DNA of 33,085 nucleotides, from the NCBI RefSeq assembly GCF_030164465.1, contig NZ_JASNJE010000041.1:1-33085 (forward strand), given 5' to 3'. Origin of the DNA: Sedimentitalea xiamensis. GTDB taxonomy: Bacteria; Pseudomonadota; Alphaproteobacteria; Rhodobacterales; Rhodobacteraceae. Below are positions 9,664-27,863 of this stretch, in pieces. Each line of letters starts with the position of its first letter. Position 1 is the first letter of the stretch. The notes under the pieces were generated by a model, which made no database searches, was not told where the DNA came from, and worked only from the letters and a program-made list of their open reading frames with translations. The position numbers were made by a program, and so were the translations under genes.

Positions 9664-9669
9664 AGCTTG

Positions 9670-11448
9670 CTACTGCGATACCACGGCACGCACTCGGTCG
9701 AGTCCCGCGACGAACGCATCGACGAGGGCCGTGTCAACGTTGTAAATTCTTAAGGCGGCTCTGGGGTCTTCGGCCAGGAGAGGCCAGCGCTCCGCCAGTC
9801 TCAGGTAGTCCGTTCTGGCGGCCGAGACGTTGCCCAAATTGGCATTGGCGATGGCCAGCAGCATGTAGCTGATGCTGCTGCCGTCGGCGGCGGAGTACGT
9901 CGCGGCCGAAAGCATTTCGTCCCAGCCTTCGTTCATCATGTGAGCCATCGCCATGAACATGAAGTACCTTGGAGCCGGAGATATCGAGCGCTCGATTGCG
10001 AACTCAAGGCTTGGCTTGGCTTCCGAAAACCGACCCTGATACCCCAGCATGACACCGAGATTTCCGACAGTTTCAGGATCATTCGGGTTTGTCTCGACGG
10101 CGCGCCGCGCATAATCGATCGACTGCTCGAGATCTCCTTCGAAGTGCAGGATATGCGACATCGCTTTCAGTGCATCCGTATCTCTGGGGTTCAGGGTCAA
10201 GGCATGAGCCGCGGCCTCACGCGCCTGCGCGTATCCCTCTTCCCTTGTCAGGTTTTCCTCGTAGTTGAAACGAGCCGCATCAAAGCGAAGGTAGGCAAGC
10301 ATTGCCCAGCCGCGCGAAAATTCAGGTTGTCTTTGAACAGTCTCCTCGAGGCAGTTCCGCGTGTCCCAATAGAGATCCCTGCTTTGGATACGCCGATATT
10401 CCGTCGCGCGTGCAATGCAGGCGTAGCTTGTGAGGCTCGGGTCGGATGTCTCAGCGAGAAGCCTATCGCGGGTTTCACTCCGCACGACTCCATATTGCTG
10501 ACCGATCGCGGCCGCGACCTGGGACGAAATCTCATCACTGATGCCGGATATGCCACGTTCGCCGTCGCTCTCCGAATACCGCTCGGACCAGAGAACCTCT
10601 TCGTCCTCATTTCGCGAAAGCTCGGCCCGGACGAACATCTGGTTTTCTTCCCGCCACACGATCCCATGCACCGTGTAAAGAGTCCGACCAGGGAGTGGGA
10701 CCGCAGTTGCCCCCTCAGTCTCGTTCTCCCCGGTCTCCAAGGTGGTGTGCGCGCGGATGTCAGGAAACTTCAAGAGAGCGCCGGTGATGTCTTGGGCCAG
10801 CAATCGGGCGACCAAGGTCGCCTCGGCATCGCGGTTGGCCGTCTCGAAGGGCTGAACCAGAATGCTTGCGCCCCTGAATGGCAAGTCGGTGTAAGAATGG
10901 TCCTCGTCATCGGGCTGCATGACCCAGAACAGGACCGAGCCGACTAAGGCAACGACGCCAATAGCTACCAGCGCCACGAACGGAATTGGCAGCTTTTTGA
11001 CCCGGGGCGCGTCGGCAATTTCGGGTGCTGCGGGGTCAGCCGCGTCGGCCTCCGTCGGCATTGTCGCGCCGTGCTCATGATCCAAAGCCAGTTGACGCGA
11101 AAATTTGGGCCGGTAATGCCCTTTGGGAACCTCGATCCGAACGGGATCTGTGCGGCCCGGGCCGGCATAGTAATTATCAAGGTCACGACGCAGCTTGCGT
11201 GCCTCGAGCCGAACGATCGGATCGCTTTGCTGGTCGAAATCCGCTCCCCGATCGAAAACCGCCATGGCGATGGTTGTCGCTTTCAGTTCCGACGCGCGAC
11301 CAGCAAGTGCTTCATCCACAATGAATGCCAGCATTTCGCGCCGTCGTGCATTCGCCTGCAGTTGGGAAAATCCCAGAATTCGTTCGAGTTGCCGGCGGAC
11401 CTCGATATCGTCGATCAACTCCGGGCTGTCGGCATTTCTGCGGGGCAT
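9670..11448 (-). CDS. membrane-anchored regulator candidate: N-terminal DNA-binding-like domain, TM helix, periplasmic TPRs
   Basis: This 592-residue protein starts MPRRNADSPELIDDIEVRRQ behind GGAAGG; upstream Met codons lack one. Residues 15-115 form a helical, winged-helix-like domain with the motif FDRGADFDQQSDPIVRLEAR and RIEVPKGHYRPKF. This domain is found in alphaproteobacterial TolB/TPR proteins often annotated as adenylate cyclase-like or CadC-like. One transmembrane helix follows (about 154-177). A TolB/FlgO-like segment (GASILVQPFE, ALLKFPDIRAHTT) comes next, then TPR repeats from about 370 to 560 (including ALTLNPRDTDALKAMSHILH and RRAVETNPNDPETVGNLGVM). The topology suits a one-component sensor with cytoplasmic DNA binding and a periplasmic ligand or partner domain. 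It is divergent from the catabolic genes across 170 bp that hold a perfect palindrome. Control of that locus is my inference; direct DNA binding is unproven. Confidence 0.72.
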   Translation of the reverse strand: MPRRNADSPELIDDIEVRRQLERILGFSQLQANARRREMLAFIVDEALAGRASELKATTIAMAVFDRGADFDQQSDPIVRLEARKLRRDLDNYYAGPGRTDPVRIEVPKGHYRPKFSRQLALDHEHGATMPTEADAADPAAPEIADAPRVKKLPIPFVALVAIGVVALVGSVLFWVMQPDDEDHSYTDLPFRGASILVQPFETANRDAEATLVARLLAQDITGALLKFPDIRAHTTLETGENETEGATAVPLPGRTLYTVHGIVWREENQMFVRAELSRNEDEEVLWSERYSESDGERGISGISDEISSQVAAAIGQQYGVVRSETRDRLLAETSDPSLTSYACIARATEYRRIQSRDLYWDTRNCLEETVQRQPEFSRGWAMLAYLRFDAARFNYEENLTREEGYAQAREAAAHALTLNPRDTDALKAMSHILHFEGDLEQSIDYARRAVETNPNDPETVGNLGVMLGYQGRFSEAKPSLEFAIERSISPAPRYFMFMAMAHMMNEGWDEMLSAATYSAADGSSISYMLLAIANANLGNVSAARTDYLRLAERWPLLAEDPRAALRIYNVDTALVDAFVAGLDRVRAVVSQ

Positions 11449-11541
11449 GTGCCTTCCTGAGATAAATTTTCCGGCAAATTCCGCTGATACGTAACATGCC
11501 AATTTCGCCGCTGCCACGGCTGTTTGGCCCAGGGCGATCCT

Positions 11542-11563
11542 ACGTTGCAACATGTTGCAACGT
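11542..11563. promoter_or_regulatory. perfect 22-bp palindrome, candidate operator
   Basis: Two copies of the self-complementary octamer GTTGCAAC are separated by AT and flanked by AC on the left and GT on the right. The result is a perfect 22-bp palindrome. The octamer centres are 10 bp apart, one helical turn. It lies in the divergent intergenic region, 55 bp before the first catabolic gene and 93 bp before the TPR regulator. Tandem TTGCAA-type boxes are bound by some XRE-family short-chain acyl-CoA regulators in Rhodobacteraceae, so the cognate factor could also be one of these encoded elsewhere. Confidence 0.75.
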
Positions 11564-11618
11564 GCCGCTTCGCCCATGGTTCCGTCTAGGCTCCGGGCAT
11601 AACAGCTCCGGAGGGGGC

Positions 11619-11906
11619 ATGGACGCCACTTATCTGCAGACACTTGTGCGACGGTTCCCGGACCTCGAACTCGGCATCAAGAGGCTGCATCGCGACGATG
11701 CCGATTTCCAATCCATCTGCGAAGAGATGGAGATGGCGGAAATCGCGTGTGATCGGTGGAAGGACCTTCCGGATCGCGCTGACGAATATCAGAAGATATT
11801 CGACCGGCTCCAGGACGAGTTTCTCGACTACCTATCGGGGAAGACACGTGAAGCGTTTCTGCGACCGCTGCAACAAGGGATGAAAGACAATGGCCGGAAT
11901 TCTTGA
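11619..11906 (+). CDS. small conserved-looking helical protein, first gene of the catabolic operon
   Basis: This 95-residue protein begins MDATYLQTLVRRFPDLELGI behind a strong GGAGGGGG. It is almost entirely helical and acidic: RDDADFQSICEEMEMAEIAC, RADEYQKIFDRLQDEFLDYL. The frame is open further upstream, but the ribosome-binding site fixes this start. I recognise the general pattern of small proteobacterial proteins with a DADF...CEE...EY...L-DE layout. No function is established that I can name. Its last 17 bp overlap the start of the CoA-transferase gene, so the two are likely translationally coupled. It is the gene nearest the palindromic operator. Confidence 0.75.
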   Translation: MDATYLQTLVRRFPDLELGIKRLHRDDADFQSICEEMEMAEIACDRWKDLPDRADEYQKIFDRLQDEFLDYLSGKTREAFLRPLQQGMKDNGRNS

Positions 11907-13104
11907 AGGAATAAAAGTGATCGAGGTCGCTTCGATGGCGGCCGCGCCGAATGCGACCGTGATCCTCGCCGATCTCGGCGCGGAGGTGATCAAGGTCGAG
12001 CCTCTTGGCGGCGATCCCTGGCGGTACGGACACATGACGCCGGGCCTGCCGCCAAGCAAGGTGCCATGGACGACCTACATCCAGAACCGCACCAAGAAGT
12101 CGGTGGCTCTGAATCTGAAGAAACCGGAAGCGCAGGAGGCGCTGCTCAAGCTGGCGGCGACGGCCGATGTCTTTCTGACCAACTCGCCGCACCCGGTTCA
12201 GAAGGCCCTGAAGCACACCTACGAGGACATCAAGGCGGTCAATCCAAGGATCGTTTACGCCTCCATCAACGGCTTCGGTCAGGAAGGTCCGGACAAGGAC
12301 GCGCCGGGGTTTGACGCAACAGCGTGGTATGCCCGAACCGGGATCATGGAGGAGCTTCGGCCCAAGGATGGTGGCCCGGTGGCGCTGCCCGTCGGTCTCG
12401 GCGACCTCGGGACCGCGTCGACCCTGGCGGGCGCGGTTCTGGCGGGGCTTTTCCACCGGGAGCGGACCGGCCAGGGATCCGAAGTCTTCACGTCCCTGAT
12501 GCACAACGGGCTGTGGGCGAACTCCTGCATGACACAGGCGGCTCTCGTGGGCACACCGCCGATGCAGAAATACGATCTTGAGGAATGGCCGAACCCGGTT
12601 TCCGGCGGCCGTTTCAGGACCAGGGATGGCCGATACGTCATCATCATGGAGATCAATCCGAACAATATCGGCAATCTCCGCGACGCCTTTGGCGCAGACC
12701 ACCTGAAGGGGGATGAGCGTTTCGCGACTCCGCAGGCACGAATGCTGAACGCCAAGGCGCTGTTCGAAGAGATGCAGAGCATCATCGGGCTGCATGACCT
12801 CGCTGTCGTCAAGGAGCGCCTGCAGAAATTCGGGGTGAATTTCAGCGTTGCGCAAACGACCGAGGAAAACACCCGGGACGAGCACATGATCGCGAATGGC
12901 TGTTTCCCGGAGGTCGAGGGCGCAGATGGTATCCGCACCGTCGACAGCCCGATGCAGATCCACGCAGAGGGCTACGAGAAGGTCAAACCGCAAAACCCGC
13001 CCACTGTGGGTGAGCACACGGTCTCTGAACTCAGGGCCGTTGGGTTCAGCGAAGAGGACATCAAGGCGATGGCGGAGGCAAAGGCGGTGGGATTGCCGAA
13101 GTAG
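11890..13104 (+). CDS. CaiB/BaiF-family (class III) CoA-transferase
   Basis: This 404-residue protein is a full-length class III CoA-transferase. It opens ILEGIKVIEVASMAAAPNAT, then LADLGAEVIKVEPLGGDPWR, the nucleotide-binding start of the family. YIQNRTKKSVALNLKKPE and VFLTNSP follow. The catalytic Asp should be D142 in PGFDATAWYARTG, which aligns with the active-site aspartate of formyl-CoA transferase. GLGDLGTASTLAGAVLAGLF and the C-terminal VGEHTVSELRAVGFSEEDI complete it. These cytoplasmic enzymes move CoA between carboxylic acids through Asp-acyl and Asp-CoA anhydride or thioester intermediates. Next to a CaiC-like ligase and two crotonases it would activate the acid handled by this pathway, perhaps recycling CoA from product to substrate. 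The exact acid is unknown. Confidence 0.9.
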   Translation: MAGILEGIKVIEVASMAAAPNATVILADLGAEVIKVEPLGGDPWRYGHMTPGLPPSKVPWTTYIQNRTKKSVALNLKKPEAQEALLKLAATADVFLTNSPHPVQKALKHTYEDIKAVNPRIVYASINGFGQEGPDKDAPGFDATAWYARTGIMEELRPKDGGPVALPVGLGDLGTASTLAGAVLAGLFHRERTGQGSEVFTSLMHNGLWANSCMTQAALVGTPPMQKYDLEEWPNPVSGGRFRTRDGRYVIIMEINPNNIGNLRDAFGADHLKGDERFATPQARMLNAKALFEEMQSIIGLHDLAVVKERLQKFGVNFSVAQTTEENTRDEHMIANGCFPEVEGADGIRTVDSPMQIHAEGYEKVKPQNPPTVGEHTVSELRAVGFSEEDIKAMAEAKAVGLPK

Positions 13105-13156
13105 CAGGTCCGAAACCCGCATTGCCCCCTTCCAACCGAGCAACTGAGGACAAAAC

Positions 13157-13609
13157 ATGGCTGATGAGAGCAAGTTCTTCGAAGACTTCGAGATTGGCGA
13201 CACCTACATGACCGCCGGTCGCACCATCACCGAAACCGATATCGTGATGCACGCGATGCATTCCGGTGACTTCATGCCCCACCATACGGACGAGGAATTC
13301 GCGAATTCGCAGCCGATCAAGCACCGGATCGCGCATGGCAACCTGACGTTCGTCATCAGCACAGGGCTGATCTTCCAGTCGCAGGGCATGAACGCCAACG
13401 TGATGAACTATGGCTATGGCAAGATCCGCTATCCCGGACCGGTCTACATTGGCGATACGATCAAGACCGAGGTCAAGGTTGTCGACAAGCAGGATGCCAG
13501 GCAACCGACCCATGGCGTGCTGACACAGACCGAGACGACCACCAACCAGCGTGGGGAAACGGTCTGTTTCGTCGAACACCTTCTTTACGTCAGGAAGAAG
13601 AATACCTGA
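13157..13609 (+). CDS. MaoC-like hot-dog-fold enoyl-CoA hydratase
   Basis: This 150-residue protein has the single hot-dog domain of MaoC dehydratases. It begins FFEDFEIGDTYMTAGRTITE, followed by the hydratase signature HAMHSGDFMPHHTDEEFA, in which D38 and a following His (H42 or H43) would be the catalytic pair. RIAHGNLTFVISTGL and the beta core (MNYGYGKIRYPGPVYIGDTI, KTEVKVV) follow. Such enzymes hydrate trans-2-enoyl-CoA to (R)-3-hydroxyacyl-CoA or do the reverse. The pathway also has two crotonases of the other stereochemical type, so the two systems together could epimerise a 3-hydroxyacyl-CoA or process branched intermediates. It sits 52 bp after the CoA-transferase and 27 bp before the ligase. 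Confidence 0.88.
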   Translation: MADESKFFEDFEIGDTYMTAGRTITETDIVMHAMHSGDFMPHHTDEEFANSQPIKHRIAHGNLTFVISTGLIFQSQGMNANVMNYGYGKIRYPGPVYIGDTIKTEVKVVDKQDARQPTHGVLTQTETTTNQRGETVCFVEHLLYVRKKNT

Positions 13610-13636
13610 GCGACGCAAGACGCCGAGGACAGAGCA

Positions 13637-15229
13637 TTGATCAAACCATCCGACAGCACGGCTGCCTCAAAAGGCGATGCGTTCCGCGGCATGAGCGTCA
13701 CCTGGCTGCTCGACCAATGGGTCGAGCGCCAACCGGACAAGACCTTCGTGATCTGGGCGCCCTTCGACCAGCCTGCGCGGAGTTGGACCTATGCCGAGAT
13801 GGCGCACGAGGCCAAACGCTTCGCCGCGGGCCTGCATGCTCGGGGTGTGGGGGGCGGGGATTTTGTCCTGATGCACCACGACAACGCGCCCGAGTTCCTC
13901 GGCGCGTGGCTGGGCTGCGCCTATGTCGGCGCGGTGCCGGTGACGACCAACACCCGTTCGGTGGCGGAGAACGTGGCATATTTCGCCGAACTGATGCAGC
14001 CCGCCGCTGCGATCACGCAGCCCTCGCTTGCCCCACTTGTGTGCGAGGCTTGTGGCCCCGATACGCCGATGATCGTCACCGGCGATCCCGCCGCCGACTA
14101 CGACGCCGATGCACTTGTCGCCACACCGCTTGCAGAGATCTTCTCGGACGGCCCGCTGCCCGATCTGGCCGCCGACCATACAAGGAACTTCGCCGTCCAG
14201 TTCACCTCCGGCACGACTTCGCGGCCCAAGCCGACCGTCTGGACCAACGCGAACGCCCTGTGGGGCGGCAAGACGACGGCCATGACCCTGCGGCTACGGC
14301 GCGAGGACGTCACGCTGCTGTACCTGCCGCTCTTTCATGCCAACGCGCAGGTGACGTTCTTCTCCGCCCTATGGGCGGGCAACACGGTCGTCGTTCACCC
14401 CAGCTTCTCGGCCTCGCGGTTCTGGGACACCTGCGCCGCCCATGGCGTCACCTGGGTGTCGATGATCCCCTTCGCATTCAAGGCGCTCAGCGGGCGGCCC
14501 GTGCCGGAGCACAAGGTTCACACCCTCATCGGGCTTGCCCATCTGCCGGAGGCAGAAGCCGAATTCCGCACGCGGACGATGGCGCTCTGGGGGATGACCG
14601 AAACCGGCACCGTCGCCATCATGACCGACGCGGACCATCCGGGGCCCGCGGGCACGATGGGACGGCCGCTCCCGCATTACGATGTCGAGGTGCGCAAGCC
14701 TGATGGGGCTCCGGCCGGTCCGGGGGAGGAAGGGCTTCTCTATATCCGTGGCGAGCGCGGTGCGTCGCTCTTCAAGGAGTACTATCAGCAGCCCGGGAAG
14801 ACCGAGGAAGCGTTTGACGCCAGCGGCGCGCTGGATACCGGCGACATCGTCCGCATCGACGACGGAGGCTGGCTGTTCTTCGTCAACCGCGACAAGGACA
14901 TGCTCCGCGTGGGCGGAGAGAACGTGGCGGCGCTGGAAATCGAAACGGCTATTCTCGAAACGGGCCTGATCATGGAGTGCGCCGTCGTCGCGCAGAGGCA
15001 CTACATGCTGGGCGATGTCCCCGTCGCCTTCGTCACACTGACTGATGCCGGCCATGCTCTGACGGCAGAGGAGCTGACCGAACTGGTCCTAGCCCAATGC
15101 CGAGCGAAATTGGCCGACTTCAAGGTGCCCCGCTCGGTTTTCGTCGAAGAGGATCTGCCGCGTTCGAGCCTCGACAGGGTCGCCAAAGCCAAGCTACGCG
15201 ACGGGTTGCCAAAGATCGAGGCCGACTGA
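13637..15229 (+). CDS. AMP-forming acyl-CoA synthetase (CaiC-like)
   Basis: This 530-residue protein is an ANL-superfamily adenylating enzyme. The start is TTG at 13637 with GAGGA in front; the first ATG would remove 18 residues. The P-loop reads FTSGTTSRPKPTVW (about 189-202), which keeps the Thr/Ser/Gly core and the Lys but has S for G and P for the usual G after Lys. Other motifs are LPLFHANAQ, WGMTETGT (318-325), the hinge region LDTGDIVRIDDGGWLFFVNR with DKDMLRVGGENVAALEIE, and DFKVPRSVFVEEDLPRSSLD with the C-terminal catalytic Lys in RVAKAKL. The loop before the TETG motif is shorter than usual. It would convert a carboxylate, ATP and CoA into acyl-CoA. The closest pattern I recall is crotonobetaine/carnitine-CoA ligase; the substrate is open. 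Confidence 0.88.
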   Translation: MIKPSDSTAASKGDAFRGMSVTWLLDQWVERQPDKTFVIWAPFDQPARSWTYAEMAHEAKRFAAGLHARGVGGGDFVLMHHDNAPEFLGAWLGCAYVGAVPVTTNTRSVAENVAYFAELMQPAAAITQPSLAPLVCEACGPDTPMIVTGDPAADYDADALVATPLAEIFSDGPLPDLAADHTRNFAVQFTSGTTSRPKPTVWTNANALWGGKTTAMTLRLRREDVTLLYLPLFHANAQVTFFSALWAGNTVVVHPSFSASRFWDTCAAHGVTWVSMIPFAFKALSGRPVPEHKVHTLIGLAHLPEAEAEFRTRTMALWGMTETGTVAIMTDADHPGPAGTMGRPLPHYDVEVRKPDGAPAGPGEEGLLYIRGERGASLFKEYYQQPGKTEEAFDASGALDTGDIVRIDDGGWLFFVNRDKDMLRVGGENVAALEIETAILETGLIMECAVVAQRHYMLGDVPVAFVTLTDAGHALTAEELTELVLAQCRAKLADFKVPRSVFVEEDLPRSSLDRVAKAKLRDGLPKIEAD

Positions 15230-15363
15230 ATGCTGTGCCCCGGGAAACTTCTTTGGCGATACGGACCGTTTCCAAGGAAAGCCCCGGGAGAGCGATGCCG
15301 TGCTGAACGTTCTTCTCGCATCGGTTCTGGTCGGGTCAGGCGCGTCAACTGGAGCAAGAAGAA
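15230..15363 (+). other. 134-bp spacer between ligase and first crotonase
   Basis: The spacer contains two CCCCGGG blocks (around 15238 and 15282) that could pair into a weak stem. I see no coding sequence. It may be a processing or attenuation site within the operon. Confidence 0.3.
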
Positions 15364-16140
15364 ATGGCCGACTACGAGTTCATGATCACCGAGCGCCGGG
15401 GAAACCTCGGCATCGTGACCTTCGACCGACCCGATGCATTGAATGCACTCAACGAGCAGGTGGCGATGGAAGTCACCGATGCGTTGGCCGCGTTCGATGC
15501 GAACGACAGCATCGGGTGCATGGTCCTTGCCGGTGGAGACAAGGCTTTTTGTGCCGGCGCGGATCTGAAGTGGATCGCGTCTCAGGATTTCGAAAGCGCC
15601 TATCGCACGGACCTGGGTGCCTACATGGACAAGGTCGCCGAGCTGCGGAAACCCGTCATTGCCGCGGTCCGTGGCTTCGCCTTCGGAGGCGGCACCGAAA
15701 TCTCGCTGATGTGCGACATCATCGTGGCCGACACGACCGCGCGGTTTGGGTTGCCGGAGGTCACGCTTGGCGTCATCCCCGGCGCCGGTGGACCGGCCCG
15801 CCTGACCCGCGCCGTCGGCAAGGCCAAGGCAATGTATTTCATTCTGACCGGCGACACGATCAGCGCCGAAGGTGCTGAACGCATGGGGATCATCACCAAG
15901 GTTGTGCCAGACGGCACGCATCTGGAGGAGGCGCTCCGGATCGGATCGGTCATTGCGGGCAATCCCCGCCTGGCCGTGCTGGCGGGCAAGGAGTCGGTGA
16001 ACCAGCAGGCGGAAACGCCTCTCGCTCCGGGATTGAAGCTCGAGCGGCGGCTGTTCCACGGGCTCTTAGGAACGGCCGATCAGAAGGAGGGCATGGCGGC
16101 CTTCGCCGAGAAGCGAAAACCGAACTACACGAAGTACTGA
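15364..16140 (+). CDS. enoyl-CoA hydratase/isomerase (crotonase) family protein, copy 1
   Basis: This 258-residue protein is a full-length crotonase. The N-terminal strand pair is followed by FDRPDALNALNEQVAMEVTD, and the CoA/oxyanion loop is DKAFCAGADLKWI. The helix with the first catalytic Glu is FAFGGGTEISLMCDIIVA. The second catalytic Glu and product loop read RFGLPEVTLGVIPGAGG. Both glutamates needed for syn hydration are present, so hydration of 2-enoyl-CoA to (S)-3-hydroxyacyl-CoA is expected. The C-terminal helices end in FAEKRKPNYTKY, the usual trimer-contact tail. A GGAG about 10 bases upstream supports the start. CaiD-type crotonobetainyl-CoA hydratases have the same architecture, so the context allows a carnitine-like substrate. 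Confidence 0.9.
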   Translation: MADYEFMITERRGNLGIVTFDRPDALNALNEQVAMEVTDALAAFDANDSIGCMVLAGGDKAFCAGADLKWIASQDFESAYRTDLGAYMDKVAELRKPVIAAVRGFAFGGGTEISLMCDIIVADTTARFGLPEVTLGVIPGAGGPARLTRAVGKAKAMYFILTGDTISAEGAERMGIITKVVPDGTHLEEALRIGSVIAGNPRLAVLAGKESVNQQAETPLAPGLKLERRLFHGLLGTADQKEGMAAFAEKRKPNYTKY

Positions 16141-16218
16141 GACAGCGATGGGGGTGGACGCGGTCGGCCTGTCGAACCGGCGCCCTCTCACCCAACATCG
16201 AGCGTGAAAGGAACAGAC

Positions 16219-16974
16219 ATGGACAAAGTGATTGTCGAAAAATCGGGCGGCATCATCCACGTGCGGATCAATCGCCCCGAAGTCTACAATGCCTGTGATG
16301 GCGAAACCTACAATGCCATCGCGGATGCCTGGGACGAGCTTGAAAGCGACCCTGAACTGAGGGTGGGCATCCTCAGCGGCGAAGGGAAGGCCTTCTGCAC
16401 GGGCACCGACATCGGGTGGGTCAAGACGCCCAATGCAGAAGGGTTCGTCGATCGCCTGTATCCGCGGTTGCTGTCCCTGACCAAACCGGTGATCGCGGCG
16501 ATACAAGGCCATTGCAACGGCGGCGGGCTGGAGCAGGCACTTGGCGCCGATATCCGGATCTGCACGGAAGATGCCAAATTCGGCTCGGGCGAAATCCGGC
16601 TTGGCTGGATCCCCGGTGGCCACGGGACCCAGCGACTGCCGCGCGTGATCCCCCTGGGGCCTGCACTTGAACTCCTTTACACCGGAGGCCGGATCGACGC
16701 GGCGGATGCTTATCGGCTGGGCCTCGTCAATCATGTGGTTTCGCCCGATCAGCTCCTCGAGAAGTCCAGGCAGATCGCGGGCGAAATCGTGAAAAGCGCC
16801 CCGCTTGCCGTCCAGAAGATGAAGACCACGGTCATGCAGGGCCTGGGCATGCCTTTGGAACAGGCGGTCAGGTTGGAAAAGGAAAGCTTCGAATTCCTCA
16901 TGCGGACCGAGGACTCCAAGGAAGGCGCCCTGGCATTTGCCGAAAAGCGGGCCCCGAACTGGAAGGCCAGGTAA
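16219..16974 (+). CDS. enoyl-CoA hydratase/isomerase (crotonase) family protein, copy 2
   Basis: This 251-residue protein starts MDKVIVEKSGGIIHVRINRP with AAAGGA 6 bp ahead; an upstream in-frame GTG at 16204 is less likely. The oxyanion loop is KAFCTGTDIGW. The catalytic Glu residues are in CNGGGLEQALGADIRI and KFGSGEIRLGWIPGGHG, both retained. The ending EGALAFAEKRAPNWKAR is standard. It is clearly diverged from copy 1, for example in the segment KTPNAEGFVDRLYPRLL. The two are probably not redundant and may act on consecutive intermediates, or one may act as an isomerase or hydrolase. It is the last cytoplasmic enzyme before the exported hydrolases begin, and a hairpin follows its stop codon. 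Confidence 0.9.
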   Translation: MDKVIVEKSGGIIHVRINRPEVYNACDGETYNAIADAWDELESDPELRVGILSGEGKAFCTGTDIGWVKTPNAEGFVDRLYPRLLSLTKPVIAAIQGHCNGGGLEQALGADIRICTEDAKFGSGEIRLGWIPGGHGTQRLPRVIPLGPALELLYTGGRIDAADAYRLGLVNHVVSPDQLLEKSRQIAGEIVKSAPLAVQKMKTTVMQGLGMPLEQAVRLEKESFEFLMRTEDSKEGALAFAEKRAPNWKAR

Positions 16975-16977
16975 TCG

Positions 16978-16994
16978 CGGGCGGGTTTCGCCCG
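16978..16994 (+). terminator. short hairpin after the second crotonase
   Basis: CGGGCG (16978-16983) pairs with CGCCCG (16989-16994) around GGTTT, starting 3 bp after the stop codon. There is no T-run, so it may be a weak terminator or an mRNA-stabilising stem separating the CoA genes from the hydrolase genes. Confidence 0.35.
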
Positions 16995-17040
16995 GTCAGA
17001 CCAGGTATCCCGCGGGAAGCTGGGGCACCAATAGGGCAGC

Positions 17041-17135: not shown

Positions 17136-17151
17136 TCAGGAAAACAGAACC

Positions 17152-18456: not shown

Positions 18457-18476
18457 GACTTAATTACCGCCGGCGG

Positions 18477-18493: not shown

Positions 18494-18505
18494 TCAGCCG
18501 GCTCA

Positions 18506-20170: not shown

Positions 20171-20361
20171 GGCGCATCAGTTGCAATCCCTGGTCCGGTC
20201 CTTCGGGCGTAGCAGCAAGGCGGAGCAAATACAGTTCCGCCAGACTGCGCACAGACGGACAGAAACGGGGAGGCTGCGTGATGTCCAGACTCCCCCGAGA
20301 CGGTCGGGCGCAAGACTAGGCGGAAGAGTCCCGAGCCGACCAATGCCAAGGACAACAGCCA

Positions 20362-21690
20362 ATGAAACCTGACTTGGGAGTATACTGGATGTATCGCACT
20401 GCACTGACCTGCGCCATCTTGGCCACCTGCGTTCTCGCCCAGCCACAGACTGTTCTGGCACAGGAACAGACCCCGACCTCGGAAACCCCGCTGGCTCGGG
20501 TCAAGGACATCCAGGAATACTTCGCCCAGCCGGAGAACGCGGTGAGCTTCCAGTTCGCCAGTCCGGAAACGCACTACGCCTGGCAGCACGTTTCGCAGTT
20601 TTATCCGACCGCGCGTTTCGCGCGCTCCGGTATGCCGACGGTGCTGGAGTCGGCCATCGACGAGTCGCTGGGCGACATTTCCTTTTCCGGAATGGATGGC
20701 GTGACCCGCACTGTCTCGGAGCATTTCGAGGCAATGCCGCTCGACGCGATGCTGGTGATGAAGGACGGCCAGATCGTCTACGAGCGCTACAAGACGATGA
20801 CGCCGGACACCGCCCATATCACCTTCTCGTCCAGCAAGGTCTTCAGTTCCACGATCCTCGCGCTGCTGGAGGAAGAGGGAAAGGTGGACCTGTCGAAGCC
20901 GGTTACCGACTATGTCGAGGAACTGAAGGGTTCGGTCTGGGACACGGTCACGCTGCGCGAGGTTGCTGACATGCAGACCGGCCTGAACGGAACGGAGCAT
21001 GACGAGCCGAACCCCGACAGCCGGACGAACCCCAAGCAGATCTGGTATCGCTGGGCGGCAACACTCGGCATCTTCCCCAATCAGGGCGAGAACGACACCT
21101 TTGCCGTCCTGCGCGCAATGGAGCGGAACAAACCCGGCGGCGAGGTCTTCGAGTACAACTCGATCAACACCTGGCTGCTGGCCCGGATCGCGGAGGCTGT
21201 CGAGGACCGACCCTTCGCCGAGATCTTCACCGACCGGGTCTGGAGCAAGATCGGCGCCGACCATGACGGCACCTTCATCATGTCTCCCAACGGTTATGCA
21301 CTGGCCTTCGGCATGACCAGCGTCACCCTGCGCGACTTCGCGCGCTTCGGGTCGATGTTCACCCCCAGCTCCGAGGCGGTCACCGGCTCCAAGGTGGTCA
21401 GCGACGAGGTCCTCAAGCGCATCCAGACCTCGGGCAACCCGGACGCCTATCCCGATGGCTACGTGGGCAAGGTGATGTCGCCGAAATTCGCGGACGCCGC
21501 CGGCGAGATCTCCAATGCCTATATGTGGGACGCGATCCTGCCGGATGGCGACATGTTCAAGGGCGGGGTCGGCGGCCAGGGGCTTTATGTCTCGCCGTCC
21601 AAGGATCTGGTCGCGGTCTGGTTCACCACGGGCGACGGCTCCGAGTGGAACGAGGCGATGGCCCGGGCCATCGCGCTGCACTTCGACTGA
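20362..21690 (+). CDS. exported serine beta-lactamase-fold hydrolase (NylB/S12-like), copy 2
   Basis: This 442-residue protein has a signal peptide ending near VLAQEQ. The start is ambiguous: ATG 20362 (AAGGA upstream) or ATG 20389 (GGGAG upstream, giving the more compact signal MYRTALTCAILATCVLAQPQ). Catalytic motifs are S156-S-S-K159 in ITFSSSKVFSSTILALLEEE, Y265-N-S in VFEYNSINTWLL and K-G-G in FKGGVGGQGLYVSPSKDLVA. YNS is closer to the classical YxN motif than the YSS of copies 1 and 3, and the insert EHDEPNPDSRTNPKQIWYRW is specific to this copy. The active-site pocket therefore differs and the substrate may too. It lies 79 bp before the intact amidohydrolase, which suggests co-transcription. 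Confidence 0.87.
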   Translation: MKPDLGVYWMYRTALTCAILATCVLAQPQTVLAQEQTPTSETPLARVKDIQEYFAQPENAVSFQFASPETHYAWQHVSQFYPTARFARSGMPTVLESAIDESLGDISFSGMDGVTRTVSEHFEAMPLDAMLVMKDGQIVYERYKTMTPDTAHITFSSSKVFSSTILALLEEEGKVDLSKPVTDYVEELKGSVWDTVTLREVADMQTGLNGTEHDEPNPDSRTNPKQIWYRWAATLGIFPNQGENDTFAVLRAMERNKPGGEVFEYNSINTWLLARIAEAVEDRPFAEIFTDRVWSKIGADHDGTFIMSPNGYALAFGMTSVTLRDFARFGSMFTPSSEAVTGSKVVSDEVLKRIQTSGNPDAYPDGYVGKVMSPKFADAAGEISNAYMWDAILPDGDMFKGGVGGQGLYVSPSKDLVAVWFTTGDGSEWNEAMARAIALHFD

Positions 21691-21769
21691 ACCCAGAGTA
21701 TGCGCAGGCTCGGCGCAGCACCCCAGCTCCTCAGGAGGGGCAAACAACACCAACAGGAAGATCAATATC

Positions 21770-23131
21770 ATGAAAACCAGCAATCAGCGCCGCTACCTCA
21801 AGGGCGCAGCCGCCACAGCGCTCGCCCTTGCCGTCGCCAGCAGCGCCGTGACCGCGCAGGAGGGCACGGCGCCGATCCTCTTCACCAACGCCCATATCTT
21901 CGACGGCACGTCGCCTGACCTGTCCGGTCCGATGAGCGTGCTGATCGAGGGCAACACGATCAGCAGCATCGCGGCAGAGATCACCGCGCCCGAAGGCGCC
22001 ACCGTGATCGACGCGGGCGGCGACACGCTGATGCCCGGCCTGACGGACTGCCACTGGCACACGATGCAGGCCAACACGACCAACGCGCTCTTCCTGACCC
22101 AAGACCTCGACTACATTGCGCTCGAGGCGGCCGTCGGCGCCGAGAAGGTGTTGATGCGCGGCTTCACCACCCTGCGAGACATGGGCGGGCCGGTCTTCGG
22201 CCTGAAAAAGCTGATCGACAACGGGACCTATGTGGGTCCGCGCATCTATCCCTCCGGCTCCTACATCTCGCAGACCTCCGGTCACGCCGATTTCCGCTCG
22301 ATGCTGGAGGTTCCGCGGGACTACGCGCGCGACCTGACCGCTCAGGAGCAGCGCGGCATGCTGATCATCGCCGACGGCAAGGCTCAGGTCATGCAGCGGG
22401 CGCGCGAGAACCTGATGAAGGGCGCCGTGCAGCTGAAGGCCATGGCTGGCGGGGGCGTGGCTTCGCCGTCGGATCCGCTCGACGTGGCGCAGTTCACACA
22501 GGAAGAGCTTCACGCCATCGTCGAGGTGGCCGAGAACTGGAACACCTATGTCTCCGTACACGCCTACTCGGCAAAAGCGGTGCAGCACGCCCTGGCCGCC
22601 GGCGTCAAAAGTATCGAGCACGGTCTGATGATTGACGAGGAGACCGCGCAGATGGTCGAGGAGGCGGACGCCTGGATCTGCATGCAGCCGATCCTGAACG
22701 ACGAGGACGCGATCCCGATGCCGGATGGCTCGTTCGAGCAGCAGAAGTTCTTCCAGCTGACGGATGCCGTTCCCACCGCCTACGAGCTTGCCAAGCAATA
22801 TGACCTGAAGGTCGGCTTCGGCACCGACACGCAGAACTGGCCGGAACTGCAGGACCGCCAGGGCGCACAGCTGGCGAAACTGACCCGCTGGTTCGAGCCC
22901 TGGGAGGTGCTGCGCATGGCCACCAGCCAGAACTACGAGATGTTCAAGATGGTCGGCCCCCGCGATCCCTATCCCGGCAAGAACGGCGTGATCGAAGAGG
23001 GCGCGCTGGCGGACATCCTGCTGGTGGACGGCAACCCGCTCGAAGACATCAACCTGATCGCCGATCCCGAGGCCAACTTCGTCGTGATCATGAAGGACGG
23101 CGTCATCTACAAGAACACGCTCGAGAATTGA
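21770..23131 (+). CDS. exported amidohydrolase (Xaa-Pro/Xaa-Arg dipeptidase-like, imidazolonepropionase-related)
   Basis: This 453-residue protein starts MKTSNQRRYLKGAAATALAL, a signal peptide cleaved near VTAQ; longer in-frame readings upstream lie inside the preceding gene. The binuclear metal site of the amidohydrolase superfamily is complete: H95 and H97 in LTDCHWHTMQ, K223 (carboxylated) in VQLKAMAGGGVASP, H264 in VSVHAYSAKA, H284 in SIEHGLMID, and D353 in VGFGTDTQNW. The sequence pattern, with GFTTLRDMGG and DGNPLEDINLIADP, is that of bacterial prolidase-like enzymes cutting Xaa-Arg, Xaa-Pro or N-acyl amino acids. It is probably a periplasmic dipeptidase or N-acyl-amino-acid hydrolase. 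Its 3' end is the template matched by the two remnants at 17041-17135 and 18506-18559. Confidence 0.88.
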   Translation: MKTSNQRRYLKGAAATALALAVASSAVTAQEGTAPILFTNAHIFDGTSPDLSGPMSVLIEGNTISSIAAEITAPEGATVIDAGGDTLMPGLTDCHWHTMQANTTNALFLTQDLDYIALEAAVGAEKVLMRGFTTLRDMGGPVFGLKKLIDNGTYVGPRIYPSGSYISQTSGHADFRSMLEVPRDYARDLTAQEQRGMLIIADGKAQVMQRARENLMKGAVQLKAMAGGGVASPSDPLDVAQFTQEELHAIVEVAENWNTYVSVHAYSAKAVQHALAAGVKSIEHGLMIDEETAQMVEEADAWICMQPILNDEDAIPMPDGSFEQQKFFQLTDAVPTAYELAKQYDLKVGFGTDTQNWPELQDRQGAQLAKLTRWFEPWEVLRMATSQNYEMFKMVGPRDPYPGKNGVIEEGALADILLVDGNPLEDINLIADPEANFVVIMKDGVIYKNTLEN

Positions 23132-23144
23132 GGAGAACTGACCA

Positions 23145-24446
23145 ATGAGACGTAATGACTCCAAGACGCCAACCGAAGCTGCCGCAATCCCGGACGTCGT
23201 GGACTTTGCGGCGCCGGCCGGCTCCACCCGGCGCGAGTTCATCGAGGCCTTTACCGCCATGGGCGGGGCCGCAGCGGCGGCCATGGTTCTTGGGCCCAGC
23301 AAGGCCTCAGCAGCCGACATTCCGGCCACGAATGCATCGGTCAGCATGCCGGAGTTCGAGATAAAGGACTACTCGGACATTCCGCAGCGCTCTCATGTCT
23401 ATCCCGCCTCTTCCGAGGCGGAGGCGATCGTGCAAAGCTCCAAGACCATGGACACGCTTTTCTCTGCTATCTGGCCTGACCAGTGGTCCAGCCCCGAAGC
23501 CCCGGAGTTTGCAGATGAGATGGCGCGGTGCAAGGCGGCCGGCTTCAAGGTTCTGGCGGTCTGCCCTTCGGCGGATTCACTGGACGCGTCCATCCGCGGT
23601 GTCGCAGGCGCGTTGATCTTCTACCTGAACAAGATCAGCGAGCGGCCTGACCTCTACAAGATCGTCCGCAATGCCAGCGATATCGATGCCGCGATCAAGG
23701 AAGACAAGCTCGGCATCTACTTCACCCACCAGGGAACCGCATTGTTCGAGAACGATGTGGACATGGTCGGACTGTGGCGGCAACTGGGCTACGGCTACTG
23801 CCTGCTGGCCTACAACCAACGCAATTCCGTTGGGGACGGCTGCTTCGAGACCGCCAACGGCGGCCTGACGGCCTATGGCAAGCAACTGATCGATGCCTAC
23901 AACCGCCACGGCATGCTGGTGGACGTCAGCCACACTGGCGAACAAACCTCGCTGGACGCTATCGAGCGCAGCAGCCAGCCGGTGATTTCTTCCCATTCGG
24001 GTGCCTTGGCCATCGCAGACTATCAGCGCAGCATCTCTGATGCGGTGATCAAGGCCATTGCGGAGAGTGGCGGCGTCTGCAGCCTGAATTTGGTTGGGGC
24101 CTTTCTCGACAAGTCCAACCCGGACATTCTCACTGCCGACGCTGTCTTCCGTCACATCGATTACATGGCCGAACTCGTGGGCATCGATTATGTCGGGTTT
24201 GGCTCCGACTACATCCCCAATATCAATTTCACCGCGTCGCTGATCCAGACACCCATGGGCGCGGCGGTCTTCCCTGACGGAGGGTACAGCGCAGAAATGG
24301 GGGCCAAGGGCGTGCCGACTCCGGCCCCCTACCAGATCGCGGCAGCCCTGGTCGATAAGATGCTCGAACACGGCTACTCGGACGAAGATTGCAGCAAGTT
24401 CCTTGGCGGCAACATGTACCGTGTGATCGGGGAGGTCTGGCGGTAA
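23145..24446 (+). CDS. Tat-exported M19 (membrane dipeptidase) family protein with altered metal site
   Basis: This 433-residue protein carries a twin-arginine signal (STRREFIEAFTAMGGAAAAA, export to periplasm). It belongs to the renal dipeptidase family by GMLVDVSHTGEQTSLDAIE (H263), PVISSHSGALAI (H284) and VGFGSDYIPN (D355). Two parts of the normal dinuclear zinc centre are not where expected. The N-terminal His-x-Asp motif is replaced around SSKTMDTLFSAIW (Thr in place of His). The bridging glutamate strand (usually IEGG) reads GIYFTHQGTALF. It may therefore use one metal, recruit other residues such as H195, or have another function. It begins 13 bp after the amidohydrolase gene, so the two are very likely co-translated. 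A stem-loop lies downstream. Confidence 0.83.
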   Translation: MRRNDSKTPTEAAAIPDVVDFAAPAGSTRREFIEAFTAMGGAAAAAMVLGPSKASAADIPATNASVSMPEFEIKDYSDIPQRSHVYPASSEAEAIVQSSKTMDTLFSAIWPDQWSSPEAPEFADEMARCKAAGFKVLAVCPSADSLDASIRGVAGALIFYLNKISERPDLYKIVRNASDIDAAIKEDKLGIYFTHQGTALFENDVDMVGLWRQLGYGYCLLAYNQRNSVGDGCFETANGGLTAYGKQLIDAYNRHGMLVDVSHTGEQTSLDAIERSSQPVISSHSGALAIADYQRSISDAVIKAIAESGGVCSLNLVGAFLDKSNPDILTADAVFRHIDYMAELVGIDYVGFGSDYIPNINFTASLIQTPMGAAVFPDGGYSAEMGAKGVPTPAPYQIAAALVDKMLEHGYSDEDCSKFLGGNMYRVIGEVWR

Positions 24447-24512
24447 CGCGCCCGAAAAGTCGAGGTCTGCCCGCGGCTCGACGAAGGCGCGGACGACCTG
24501 CCTCGTAAACGC

Positions 24513-24566
24513 GGCGGTGAAGCCGGCCCCTCCTGCAACCGCGCAGGACCATCCGTCTTCACCGCC
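24513..24566 (+). repeat. two-tier inverted repeat between M19 and D-aminoacylase genes
   Basis: Outer arms GGCGGTGAAG (24513-24522) and CTTCACCGCC (24557-24566) enclose inner arms TCCTGC (24531-24536) and GCAGGA (24543-24548). The internal loops on the two sides are both exactly 8 nt and the hairpin loop is 6 nt. It sits 67 bp after the M19 stop codon in a 197-bp gap with no gene. It could terminate, attenuate or stabilise transcripts; there is no clear T-run. Confidence 0.6.
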
Positions 24567-24643
24567 CTCCGCGCCATCAATGCGCCAGGTTCAAACTGAC
24601 GATCAAGATACAGACAACGTTTCAATTTCCGGAGACCAAGCCA

Positions 24644-26317
24644 ATGACTGATACCCCTATCTCCCGCCGCGAATTCAATGTCGGAGCAACCGCAACTGTC
24701 GCCGCTGTAAGCATGGCCGGAAAGGCGATGGCTCAAGCCTCGGCCCCTTTCGACCTGGTGATCTTGAACGGTCGGGTCATGGACCCCGAGACCGGGTTCG
24801 ATCAGGTCGCAAATGTGGGAGTGAAAGACGGCCGGATCGTTGCAATCACTGCCGATATGCTGGAAGGCGCCCGCCAGATCGACGCCACAGGTCACGTTGT
24901 GGCGCCGGGCTTCATCGACACACATTTCCACTGGGTGCGGCCCATGGGCCACAAGCTCGCGCTTCGGGATGGCCGGACGACGGTGATGGATCTCGAGATG
25001 GGCACGCTCGGCACCAAGGTCGCCGATTGGTATGCTGAACGGGAGGGGACCACCCAGATCAATTTCGGCTGTTCCTCCTCGCACGAATTTGCGCGGGCCC
25101 TTGTCCTTGACGGGATCACCACACCCGATGCGCCCGAGGCGCTGAACCACCGCGGTTCGGAAAAGACCGGCTGGGCCCTGACCAGGCCGGACATCGAACA
25201 GGGCAATGCCATTCTGCGCGTCATCGACGAGGGGCTCGCGGCCGGTGCGATCGGAATGGGCTCGACCCTGGGCTACATGCGCGACGGTGCCAGTGCGCGC
25301 GAGGTGTTCGAGCTTCAGAAGACGGCGGGGAACTATGGCCGTCCCTCGGCCTTCCATTTCCGTTACACGCCGGGAACCGACACGACGGAATCAAATGGCA
25401 TTCAGGAGATGCTGGCGAACGCCGCGGCCCTCGGCGCGCCCGCCATCGCCTGCCACTTCAACAACCCCGGCTACAACCTGGTCCATGAGCTTCTCACCCG
25501 CATGCGCGGGCGTGGGATGAACGTCTGGGGCGAACTTTACCCCTACGCCGCGGGCTCGACGGCGCTGAACGCGGTCTTTCTGGAACCGGAGGTCTGGGTC
25601 GACCAACTCGGCTATCGCTACGAAGACACGATCCAGGATGTGCTGACCGGAGAGTGGTATACCGCGGAAAGCCGTGCCGAGATGATCGCGAAGGAACCTG
25701 CCCGTCTTGTCCTCGTCTACAAGATGCCGCCGGAAGCCATCGTCGACTGGCTGAAACTGCCGGATGTGGCGATTGCGTCGGATACCGTGCCGGTTCTCGG
25801 AGACATTCCATGGGACACGCCTTTCGAGGACCTGCCCAACAGCCATCCGAGGGGGGCCGGCAGCTTCGCGAAAGCCCTGCGGATGGGCCGCGAGAATGGC
25901 ATTCCGCTGATGCAGACGGTGTCCCAGACCAGCTGGAACTCGGCCCGCCCGTTCAGCGAGATGGGGCTGAAGTCGATGCAGGAACGCGGCCGGATGCAGG
26001 AAGGCATGGTCGCCGACATCACCATCTTCAATCCCGAAACGGTGACGGACAATGCGACCTATGCCCAGGGCACGCTGCCCTCGAGTGGGATTCCGTTCGT
26101 CATCGTGAACGGCACCGTGGTGGTGGACGACTCCGAAGTGCTGAAGGACGTCAATCCGGGACAGCCGATCCGGTTCGAGCCGCAGGAGAGCCTCTTCGAG
26201 CCGCTGGAGGTCAGCACCTGGACGCAGAAATTCTACAACGTGCCGCAGGACTTCGGCGGAGGCGTTCCCGGCACCCAGCCGCAGTACGACAAGCGAATCA
26301 TCAATTGCTGTGACTAG
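24644..26317 (+). CDS. Tat-exported N-acyl-D-amino-acid deacylase-like amidohydrolase
   Basis: This 557-residue protein begins MTDTPISRREFNVGATATVA, a clear twin-arginine signal that ends near AMAQA. The metallo-dependent hydrolase fold follows: ILNGRVMDPETGFDQVANVG, KDGRIVAIT, then H94-F-H96 in PGFIDTHFHWV. TTVMDLEMGTLG carries an acid where D-aminoacylases have the bridging Cys. Further metal or catalytic residues are the His in SAFHFRYTPG and CHFNNPGY and the Asp in AIASDTVPVLGD. LGYMRDGASAREVFELQKTA and the C-terminal ADITIFNPETVTDNATYAQG with VIVNGTVVVDD match the D-aminoacylase family. It would remove N-acyl groups from D-amino acids or a similar amide in the periplasm. Cofactor loading before Tat export fits a metal enzyme. 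A strong hairpin follows the gene. Confidence 0.86.
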   Translation: MTDTPISRREFNVGATATVAAVSMAGKAMAQASAPFDLVILNGRVMDPETGFDQVANVGVKDGRIVAITADMLEGARQIDATGHVVAPGFIDTHFHWVRPMGHKLALRDGRTTVMDLEMGTLGTKVADWYAEREGTTQINFGCSSSHEFARALVLDGITTPDAPEALNHRGSEKTGWALTRPDIEQGNAILRVIDEGLAAGAIGMGSTLGYMRDGASAREVFELQKTAGNYGRPSAFHFRYTPGTDTTESNGIQEMLANAAALGAPAIACHFNNPGYNLVHELLTRMRGRGMNVWGELYPYAAGSTALNAVFLEPEVWVDQLGYRYEDTIQDVLTGEWYTAESRAEMIAKEPARLVLVYKMPPEAIVDWLKLPDVAIASDTVPVLGDIPWDTPFEDLPNSHPRGAGSFAKALRMGRENGIPLMQTVSQTSWNSARPFSEMGLKSMQERGRMQEGMVADITIFNPETVTDNATYAQGTLPSSGIPFVIVNGTVVVDDSEVLKDVNPGQPIRFEPQESLFEPLEVSTWTQKFYNVPQDFGGGVPGTQPQYDKRIINCCD

Positions 26318-26335
26318 GACCGCGACCTGAAGCGG

Positions 26336-26359
26336 GCGGTCCCGGTTGACCGGGACCGC
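26336..26359 (+). terminator. perfect 10-bp hairpin, probable terminator
   Basis: GCGGTCCCGG (26336-26345) pairs perfectly with CCGGGACCGC (26350-26359) around TTGA, 18 bp after the deacylase stop codon. Only a weak T-content follows, as is common in GC-rich alphaproteobacteria. It may end the main transcript and set the last gene apart. Confidence 0.6.
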
Positions 26360-26498
26360 GTTACCTATTCGAATGAAAGAGCGCGACTCGATCTACCGAT
26401 CGCTTGAAGGTGCCTCCCGGGTCTACTTTTACGGTGCCCCGGTCAGGACAGTCTCAGATATGCATCCTCAGGGTGTTCCATAGAAGGAAACCGATCCA

Positions 26499-27863
26499 AT
26501 GCACGTCATCAAATTGCCCGTCGCTTCGGCCCTGATACTTGGCGCCTTTGCCCTGCCGGCCCTCGCGCAGGACAACCCGCTGCAAAAGTATCTCTCCGTG
26601 CCGGGGGCCATGACGACGCTCCCTGTCGAGGCTGCGAAGGAGCCCTGGTCGCTCCAGTTCTCCCGCGACGCCCGGGCCGCCTTCGAGAACTTCCACTACC
26701 AGATGGGTGGGGACCACGCGCTCTATTACCAGCAGAATCTCAGCGAGATGCTGCCCACGGCCTATGCCGCGCCGCATTCCGACTACATCCCGCTGGAACG
26801 CGCCATTGACGACAGCATCGGCGAGAATGTGCGCTGGACGACCTCCGAGGGAGAGATGCCGCTGTCGGAGTATATCGTGCATCCCAACCACCGGGTGCAG
26901 GGCATGATGATGATCCACAAGGGCAAGGTCGTCTACGAACAATACCCGGGCATGAACCAGATGGACCGCCACGCCTGGATGTCGCCGGGCAAGGCGACCG
27001 TCGGGCTGATCCTTGCCCTGCTCGAGGAGGAGGGCAAGCTCGACATGTCCAAGGACGTGGTCAACTATGTGCCGCAACTTGCGGGCACGAACTGGGATGG
27101 CATCTCGGTCCTTGATGCGGCCAACATGGAGACGGGGTTGGCGCTCGAGGAAACCCTCGATGCGATCATCGACCCATCCTCGATCATCGTACGCTTCTTC
27201 GCGGCCGAATTCGGCTCCCCGAACCCGTTGACCGGGGAAATGGAGAACTGGCTCGACATCCTGAAGACCGCGGAAAAGCTCGAGGGCGAGGAGCCCGGCG
27301 AGGTCTTCCGCTACTCCTCTGCGGTGACGCAGGTCAGCGTGCTCCTGGCCGAGAACCTCGACAACATGACCTGGGCGGACCTGTTCCAGGAACGAGTCTG
27401 GGGCAAGGTCGGCGCACGCGAGGACATCATGTTCCACCTGATGCCGGACGGCACCGCCGTGACCCACGGGCTGATCTCCACCACGCTCGAGGACTTCGGC
27501 CGGTTCGGCTTGCTCTTCACCCCCAGCTGGGCCGCCACCGCACATGAGGACATCGTTTCCGACGCTGTGTTGGAGCGGATGCAGACCGCAGGCAACCCGG
27601 AAGCCTTCCGGCGCGGTGCCAAGTTCGCCGGTCTGACGGACGAGTTCGGAGAGGAGCCCAAAGCGAACTCGCTGCAATGGGATGCGGTCTTCGAGGACGG
27701 GGCGCTCTACAAGCACGGCAATGTCGGACAGGGCCTCTACGTCGATCCGGCCCGGGATTTCGTGGGCGTCTACTTTTCGACCAACGGCTACATCCCGCCC
27801 TACGGGGAAGACCGGGCTCAGGGCTTCCTGCGTCAGGCCGCGAAGTACCTGGGCGGAGAGTAA
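26499..27863 (+). CDS. exported serine beta-lactamase-fold hydrolase (NylB/S12-like), copy 3
   Basis: This 454-residue protein starts MHVIKLPVASALILGAFALP, a Sec signal cleaved near ALAQD; GAAGGAAA precedes the start. The active site has S162-P-G-K165 in WMSPGKATVGLILALLEEEG, Y272-S-S in FRYSSAVTQVS, and K-H-G in YKHGNVGQGLYVDPARDF. The third motif is thus KHG rather than the KGG of copies 1 and 2. The extra N-terminal segment FSRDARAAFENFHYQMGGDH is specific to this copy. It follows a strong hairpin and a 181-bp gap, so it may have its own promoter. Its stop codon is followed within a few bases by IS110 sequence, which marks the right border of the intact locus. Confidence 0.87.
   Translation: MHVIKLPVASALILGAFALPALAQDNPLQKYLSVPGAMTTLPVEAAKEPWSLQFSRDARAAFENFHYQMGGDHALYYQQNLSEMLPTAYAAPHSDYIPLERAIDDSIGENVRWTTSEGEMPLSEYIVHPNHRVQGMMMIHKGKVVYEQYPGMNQMDRHAWMSPGKATVGLILALLEEEGKLDMSKDVVNYVPQLAGTNWDGISVLDAANMETGLALEETLDAIIDPSSIIVRFFAAEFGSPNPLTGEMENWLDILKTAEKLEGEEPGEVFRYSSAVTQVSVLLAENLDNMTWADLFQERVWGKVGAREDIMFHLMPDGTAVTHGLISTTLEDFGRFGLLFTPSWAATAHEDIVSDAVLERMQTAGNPEAFRRGAKFAGLTDEFGEEPKANSLQWDAVFEDGALYKHGNVGQGLYVDPARDFVGVYFSTNGYIPPYGEDRAQGFLRQAAKYLGGE

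Follow-up and report, generated by a model that had tools for sequence, protein, structure and literature searches.

The complete contig NZ_JASNJE010000041.1 of Sedimentitalea xiamensis (33,085 bases; hereafter the window), one of the 90 contigs of a 4.75 Mb genome, carries a run of 12 genes on its forward strand between positions 11890 and 27863, with intergenic gaps of 13–197 bases. The run encodes, in this order, a class III coenzyme A (CoA)-transferase (CaiB), a MaoC-type hydratase, an AMP-binding ligase (LIG), two crotonases (ECH1 and ECH2) and seven hydrolases, namely S12a, M20, S12b, an amidohydrolase (AHXP), M19, a D-aminoacylase-like protein (DAA) and S12c (Table 1). Profile searches with Pfam and NCBIfam matched all 12 products to their families, bearing out the one-strand gene set that an initial annotation had read from the sequence. 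That annotation placed the locus at 9670–27863; the 12-gene run stands, while the gene at its left end is a divergent minus-strand TPR protein (REG). In a pattern check, the expected catalytic and metal-binding motifs were present in all five CoA enzymes and in six of the seven hydrolases, in agreement with the six fully motif-bearing hydrolases described before. All seven hydrolases begin with leader-like N-termini, as read by eye: Sec-like on the three S12 enzymes and M20, twin-arginine-like on AHXP, M19 and DAA. The start of AHXP was set at 21770; the longest mechanical frame begins at 21515, within the S12b gene.

Table 1. Features of the catabolic gene run and its borders in the window.
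Feature	Position	Strand	Support
REG, TPR protein, putative regulator	9670–11643	-	Pfam TPR only
CaiB, class III (CaiB/Frc-type) CoA-transferase	11890–13104	+	PF02515, E 1.6e-85; GxGD present
MaoC-type hydratase	13157–13609	+	PF01575
LIG, AMP-forming acyl-CoA ligase	13637–15229	+	PF00501 and PF13193
ECH1, crotonase	15364–16140	+	PF00378; both hydratase Glu positions present
ECH2, crotonase	16219–16974	+	PF00378; both Glu residues seen in the printed stretch
S12a, NylB-like serine hydrolase, leader by eye	17152–18456	+	PF00144
M20 (PRK08262-like) metallohydrolase, leader by eye	18650–20170	+	PF01546
S12b, NylB-like serine hydrolase, leader by eye	20362–21690	+	PF00144
AHXP, prolidase/ochratoxinase-like amidohydrolase	21770–23131	+	PF01979
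M19 membrane-dipeptidase homologue without HxD	23145–24446	+	PF01244, E 9.7e-70
DAA, D-aminoacylase-like amidohydrolase	24644–26317	+	NF006560, 367 bits (cut-off 340)
S12c, NylB-like serine hydrolase, leader by eye	26499–27863	+	PF00144
IS110-family transposase, right edge	27936–28874	+	NF033542, 173.7 (cut-off 140), profile 1–271 of 343

The best solved-structure matches of S12a, S12b and S12c are all entries named 6-aminohexanoate-dimer hydrolase, that is NylB, with an E-value of about 1e-35 for S12b. The SxxK motif is present in each of the three and the Tyr was located by alignment, so that the catalytic Ser, Lys and Tyr, which are named for NylB in PMC11052090, are kept. The window enzymes differ from NylB in carrying leader peptides, as judged by eye, and in forming three distinct, co-occurring clades. 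In a tree of 52 S12 proteins, S12a formed one group of 13 rows (support 100/100), the S12b core comprised 21 rows (99/98) and the S12c core 13 rows (98/99); two b-labelled and three c-labelled rows lay outside the cores. Every window copy paired with a copy from Maritimibacter, and each clade includes Alphaproteobacteria and Bacteroidota, b and c also Gammaproteobacteria. All 52 rows have the catalytic Tyr, and all but one, which is truncated, have Ser and Lys (51 of 52). The HG-motif His of NylB is kept in S12a (12 of the 12 rows with a letter there), whereas S12b has Phe or another residue.

The other four hydrolases belong to metal-hydrolase types. M20 contains the metal-ligand motifs AHQD, DDK, DEEVGG and SDSKH, and its best model family is PRK08262 (PM20D1/CPS1-like); however, it scored below all three equivalog cut-offs of these NCBIfam models (408.6 vs 825, 373.9 vs 503 and 284.9 vs 510), and its matches in Vibrionaceae, Persicobacter and Flammeovirga share 72–76% identity with it. 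AHXP has the metal pattern HxH-K-H-H-D, which it shares with the prolidase 3mkv in an alignment of the two; its closest solved relatives also include the prolidase 3feq and the ochratoxinase 4c5y. It differs from them in falling below the cut-off of the Xaa-Pro dipeptidase equivalog NF051886 (210.9 vs 500) and in having four family copies in Maritimibacter. DAA possesses the HxH, two His and Asp of D-aminoacylase and N-acyl-D-glutamate deacylase (pattern HxH-H-H-D), but reaches just 80–88 bits against its closest solved relatives of these types, 1rjq and 3gip, and the model whose cut-off it exceeds is named only 'amidohydrolase family protein'. The fourth enzyme, previously called an M19 relative, does belong to the family (PF01244, 235.7 vs a Pfam cut-off of 26, the match beginning at profile position 36), with 2i5g as its nearest solved structure. 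Its N-terminal HxD metal motif was not found, the sole H.D match being HID at residue 337, and a role as a canonical dipeptidase is therefore doubtful. The protein may belong to a separate M19 subgroup in which metal binding is altered.

The gene ensemble was found in Maritimibacter alkaliphilus SY-2-18 as two blocks on two contigs, with enzymes 82–95% identical to those of the window. Block 1, on a 99.7-kb contig, contains the ortholog of the TPR protein in the same place (58% identity), CaiB (92%), MaoC (88%), LIG (88%), a MarC/NAAT transporter, ECH1 (93%), ECH2 (94%), S12a (94%) and an AHXP relative (47–50%). Block 2, on a 1.7-Mb contig, contains M20 (85%), S12b (82%), AHXP (91%), M19 (95%), DAA (91%), S12c (93%), an OprB porin and two further AHXP relatives (43% and 60%). 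Nucleotide alignment was collinear with gaps, window positions 9668–18480 corresponding to block 1 and 18693–27859 to block 2, which the window joins at about 18480–18693. A search of the host for the OprB and MarC genes of Maritimibacter gave no OprB match at 1e-10 and, for MarC, just MarC-family matches of 26–32%. Upstream of the hydrolase block (L032, 66–4234), frames resemble phage tail-fibre genes by eye, and for this reason the block may adjoin a prophage.

A second, more distant assembly of these genes lies on an 81-kb plasmid of Persicobacter sp. JZB09 (Bacteroidota), with CaiB at 74%, ECH1 at 77%, M20 at 75%, LIG at 59% and MaoC at 58% identity, S12a, S12b and S12c at 38–48%, and an additional S12c-like protein at 32%. 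An internal stop interrupts one S12a copy, and by eye transposase-like frames lie between some of these genes. In two stretches covering the plasmid, no separate ECH2, AHXP, M19 or DAA was matched at 1e-8. The plasmid record gives the source as soil, while a title in the reference list of PMC10978810 describes JZB09 as a polysaccharide-degrading marine bacterium. In Persicobacter psychrovividus, an M20 gene with a DcaP neighbour was seen on two plasmids (L089 and L090) with identical DcaP and M20 accessions.

S12b was used as the marker for finding the ensemble in other genomes. When a collection of species genomes was scanned with two peptide patterns from S12b, 134 matches to the patterns and five loci were obtained, in M. 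alkaliphilus, Vibrio variabilis, Ferrimonas balearica, a Sulfurovum metagenome-assembled genome and Flammeovirga sp. SJP92; the scan was not exhaustive, since later family and order searches yielded further members. At 1e-60, S12b had matches in five genomes out of 194 from Flammeovirga's order and in 15 out of 197 from the family of V. variabilis; both counts include the centre genomes, and a few of the matches are weaker relatives (35–41%). The set of hydrolases comes back, in subsets often accompanied by AraC regulators and DcaP porins, in Vibrionaceae, Ferrimonas and the order of Flammeovirga. Conservation across Rhodobacterales is not supported, since the genomes sampled from the host's family and class contain hardly any close relatives of LIG or CaiB. 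LIG at 1e-90 occurred in two of 149 host-family genomes, host included, the other match being 39% identical, and CaiB at 1e-120 in one of 385 genomes of the host's class, which is the host itself. For S12b at E up to 1e-30, 23 of the 149 family genomes were positive, host included; the best listed non-host identity was 39% over partial length, and the four best-matching non-host genomes carry S12a-clade proteins. Outside the class, CaiB gave no match at 1e-120 among 194 genomes of Flammeovirga's order, a set containing no positive control, and at 1e-110 a single match among 72,556 plasmid records, that of Persicobacter sp. JZB09. Plasmids searched at the DNA level with the entire locus gave no match. 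Searches of openly licensed papers in PubMed Central for these genes together or for the bacteria carrying them listed nothing that describes the set.

The stretches around 19 non-host S12b loci (L028, L032–L036, L059, L060 and L091–L101) were then inspected. At least one further window hydrolase type was present at 12 of them: S12c in nine, M20 in five (among them three Vibrionaceae loci at 72–73% identity and L091 at 50%), S12a in four, AHXP in three, DAA in two and M19 in one. AraC regulators occurred at ten of the 19 loci and DcaP or OprB porins at eight. These counts do not represent independent events, because some loci are near-duplicates (L036/L094, L095/L096 and L099–L101) or lie in one genome (L033/L059/L060 and L092/L093). 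Two neighbourhood features were seen in passing: an alkyl-sulfatase-like gene adjoins a cluster of AraC, S12c, DcaP and S12b in a Vibrionaceae locus (L095, 3628–5415), and three Bacteroidota loci have, directly after an Amidohydro_3 gene, one for a CobW-type GTPase that may be a metal chaperone (L028, 8327–11043; L036, 11510–14255; L094, 10759–13522).

Clues to the substrate come from genes that accompany these hydrolases in relatives. A search for the Gly_transporter, ThrE and NAAT/MarC families found amino-acid transporter families at seven loci out of 30 distinct ones (31 if the overlapping L053 is counted): Gly_transporter at four (L028, L036, L059 and L094), ThrE at two (L091 and L093) and NAAT/MarC at L055 (104.3 vs a cut-off of 99.2). 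Choloylglycine-type (CBAH) or C45 amidases lie at L028, L033, L091 and L093; the C45 protein scored 128.5 vs a cut-off of 85, and the CBAH of Persicobacter 137.7 vs 600 on the penicillin V amidase model. Host contig C29 (L024, 5293–16960) carries a second S12a operon with a LysR regulator and a TRAP transporter, which also encodes an indolepyruvate:ferredoxin oxidoreductase (1389 bits vs 816), a dihydroxy-acid dehydratase (947 vs 710) and an ELFV amino-acid dehydrogenase. These amidase, transporter and operon neighbours fit, without proving, a hydrolysis of amino-acid conjugates followed by activation of an acid to its acyl-CoA. They also account in part for the lack of a transporter remarked on earlier: there is none among the window genes, but relatives have porins and, at some loci, amino-acid transporters, and the host has its TRAP transporter beside the S12a of C29.

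Like S12a operons with LysR, TRAP and 2-oxo-acid enzymes were recognised by eye in two genomes of the host family (L021 and L022); one of these operons includes a 2-hydroxyacid dehydrogenase, the other, according to Pfam, an AHXP relative. Host-family S12a orthologs were rejected as copies of the locus, given that those of L021, L022 and C29 are surrounded by LysR, TRAP and 2-oxo-acid enzyme genes; two other family S12a loci (L023 and L025) have neither such genes nor window genes nearby. Mycosporine-like amino acids were also considered as a substrate, raised by the recurring Gly and Thr/Ser transporter families. They were set aside, since they contain imine rather than amide links and offer no obvious acid for the ligase.

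Combined, we consider it somewhat better than an even chance (a probability of about 0.55) that the locus represents a catabolic island moved by horizontal transfer, in which exported amide hydrolysis is paired with CoA-dependent catabolism of an acid. Support for this coupling, which the initial annotation had proposed, comes from synteny in three genomes or records, namely the host, Maritimibacter and Persicobacter. Stepwise cleavage, D-specificity and a lipoamide or lipopeptide substrate, also raised before, are conjectural. From the families, motifs, partial recurrence and co-found S12 clades, we infer a location, a set of bonds, an order of steps and products as follows. In the periplasm, the seven predicted exported proteins would cut different amide (or ester) linkages within a single compound or class of compounds, probably an amino-acid conjugate or a short N-acylated peptide. 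S12a, S12b and S12c would serve as acyl-enzyme amidases using NylB-type Ser-Lys-Tyr chemistry, while M20, AHXP and DAA would trim N-acyl-amino-acid or dipeptide pieces by metal catalysis. Small neutral amino acids would be released together with a carboxylic acid, and the acid would enter the cell, be primed by LIG and receive CoA by exchange through the CaiB-type transferase, after which MaoC, ECH1 and ECH2 would hydrate the acyl-CoA. The CoA module resembles the carnitine Cai cycle in combining a ligase, a class III CoA-transferase and a crotonase that could recycle CoA. In the Cai cycle, the transferase passes CoA from the product to fresh substrate; because the CoA-transferase can recycle CoA in this way, the module could run without a dehydrogenase or thiolase of its own. 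It differs from the Cai cycle by an additional MaoC, a second crotonase and the linkage to leader-bearing hydrolases.

A number of observations weigh against such an island. A close ligase (LIG at 1e-60) was found in three of the six genomes or records searched, namely the three syntenic ones, with no match in V. variabilis, Ferrimonas or Flammeovirga SJP92, and the CoA module is consequently not obligatory. In Maritimibacter, the CoA and hydrolase modules sit on separate contigs, and the junction at 18480–18693 is taken from the assembly. Seven of the 19 S12b loci (L033, L035, L059, L060, L093, L097 and L098) had no other window hydrolase in the stretch examined. A sigma-70 consensus scan returned no promoter-like sites, where 2.8 were expected by chance. 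The substrate class is deduced from gene content, and NylB relatives can also be esterases; the M19 member without HxD seems doubtful as a canonical dipeptidase. As for the transporters, five of the seven loci supplied the queries, with L094 and L093 as the added finds; their substrates are taken from family names, the Gly_transporter protein scoring 117.5 vs 326 on an NCBIfam model named 'hypothetical protein', and no amino-acid transporter lies in the window.

Several of these points would also be explained if two unrelated mobile modules merely lay side by side, one a CoA-dependent acid pathway with S12a, the other a separate scavenging set of exported hydrolases. The separate contigs of Maritimibacter, the junction at which the window joins them and the hydrolases that occur without a close ligase in V. 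variabilis, Ferrimonas and Flammeovirga SJP92 all speak for this explanation. Nevertheless, in the samples searched, a close relative of CaiB or LIG occurred nowhere but in the host, Maritimibacter and the Persicobacter plasmid, and each of these also has S12a, S12b, S12c and M20; moreover, the CoA module of Maritimibacter includes one of the three linked S12 enzymes, S12a. We regard two independent modules as rather unlikely, at about one chance in four. The co-occurrence, in parts, of CoA genes and hydrolases in Maritimibacter and on the Persicobacter plasmid likewise runs counter to a complete lack of synteny in relatives, which had been named as the outcome that would speak against the coupling.

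It is markedly less probable that the locus is an esterase/lactonase or xenobiotic- or antibiotic-inactivation island, in which the S12 and choloylglycine-type enzymes would detoxify beta-lactams or other acyl compounds. Both families include beta-lactam-active enzymes, and S12b does give weak matches to class C beta-lactamases. However, its scores on the listed class C models are 20–40 bits vs cut-offs of 415–887 (30.9 vs 415 on the general NCBIfam model), those of S12c are 18–19 vs 810–860, and the neighbours are mostly catabolic, with porins, CoA ligase, hydratases and transporters. Least probable is the metabolism of carnitine or a betaine-type acid, offered earlier as an alternative: despite homology to the CaiB, CaiC and CaiD families, all three equivalog cut-offs are missed by far (85.8 vs 413, 250 vs 651 and, for ECH2 on the CaiD model, 170.6 vs 500), and the carnitine route needs no amidases. 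Membership in an itaconate-type pathway was rejected on NCBIfam cut-offs as well, the (R)-enoyl-CoA hydratase RipB/Ich equivalog giving 63.3 vs 340.

Returning to the catabolic island, its partial recurrence in distant bacteria suggests an undescribed way of feeding on an amide-linked compound. A more specific version, which we put forward tentatively and judge somewhat short of an even bet, is a mobile pathway crossing phyla, in which three ancient, repeatedly co-inherited NylB-like amidases and four metal-hydrolase types would dismantle one class of marine N-acylated peptides or amino-acid conjugates, with dedicated amino-acid transporters in some hosts and a CoA-recycling hydration of the freed acid. 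If this holds, an amide-linked compound would be used by several bacterial phyla, and several of the carriers are marine genera. NylB-like enzymes are known mainly from nylon by-products, and the pathway would give them a natural role. The shared gene set makes the question directly testable.

At the borders of the locus, REG is divergent from the 12-gene run and has one transmembrane segment by eye; its first 381 residues have no Pfam match, and its position is our reason for regarding it as a putative regulator. On the right, the IS110 gene follows the last hydrolase gene, S12c, after 72 bases and marks the edge of the locus. Further left, an enolase-superfamily gene (7716–8861), whose best NCBIfam model is L-talarate/galactarate dehydratase (212 vs a cut-off of 500), had no match in the loci of the compared relatives. 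The left end of the window (1204–6995) resembles mobile debris with an ISL3 transposase and WrbA-like and pirin genes, and in the frame at 5887–6954 the first part, judged by eye, does not resemble the C-terminal part, which is of glutathione S-transferase type.

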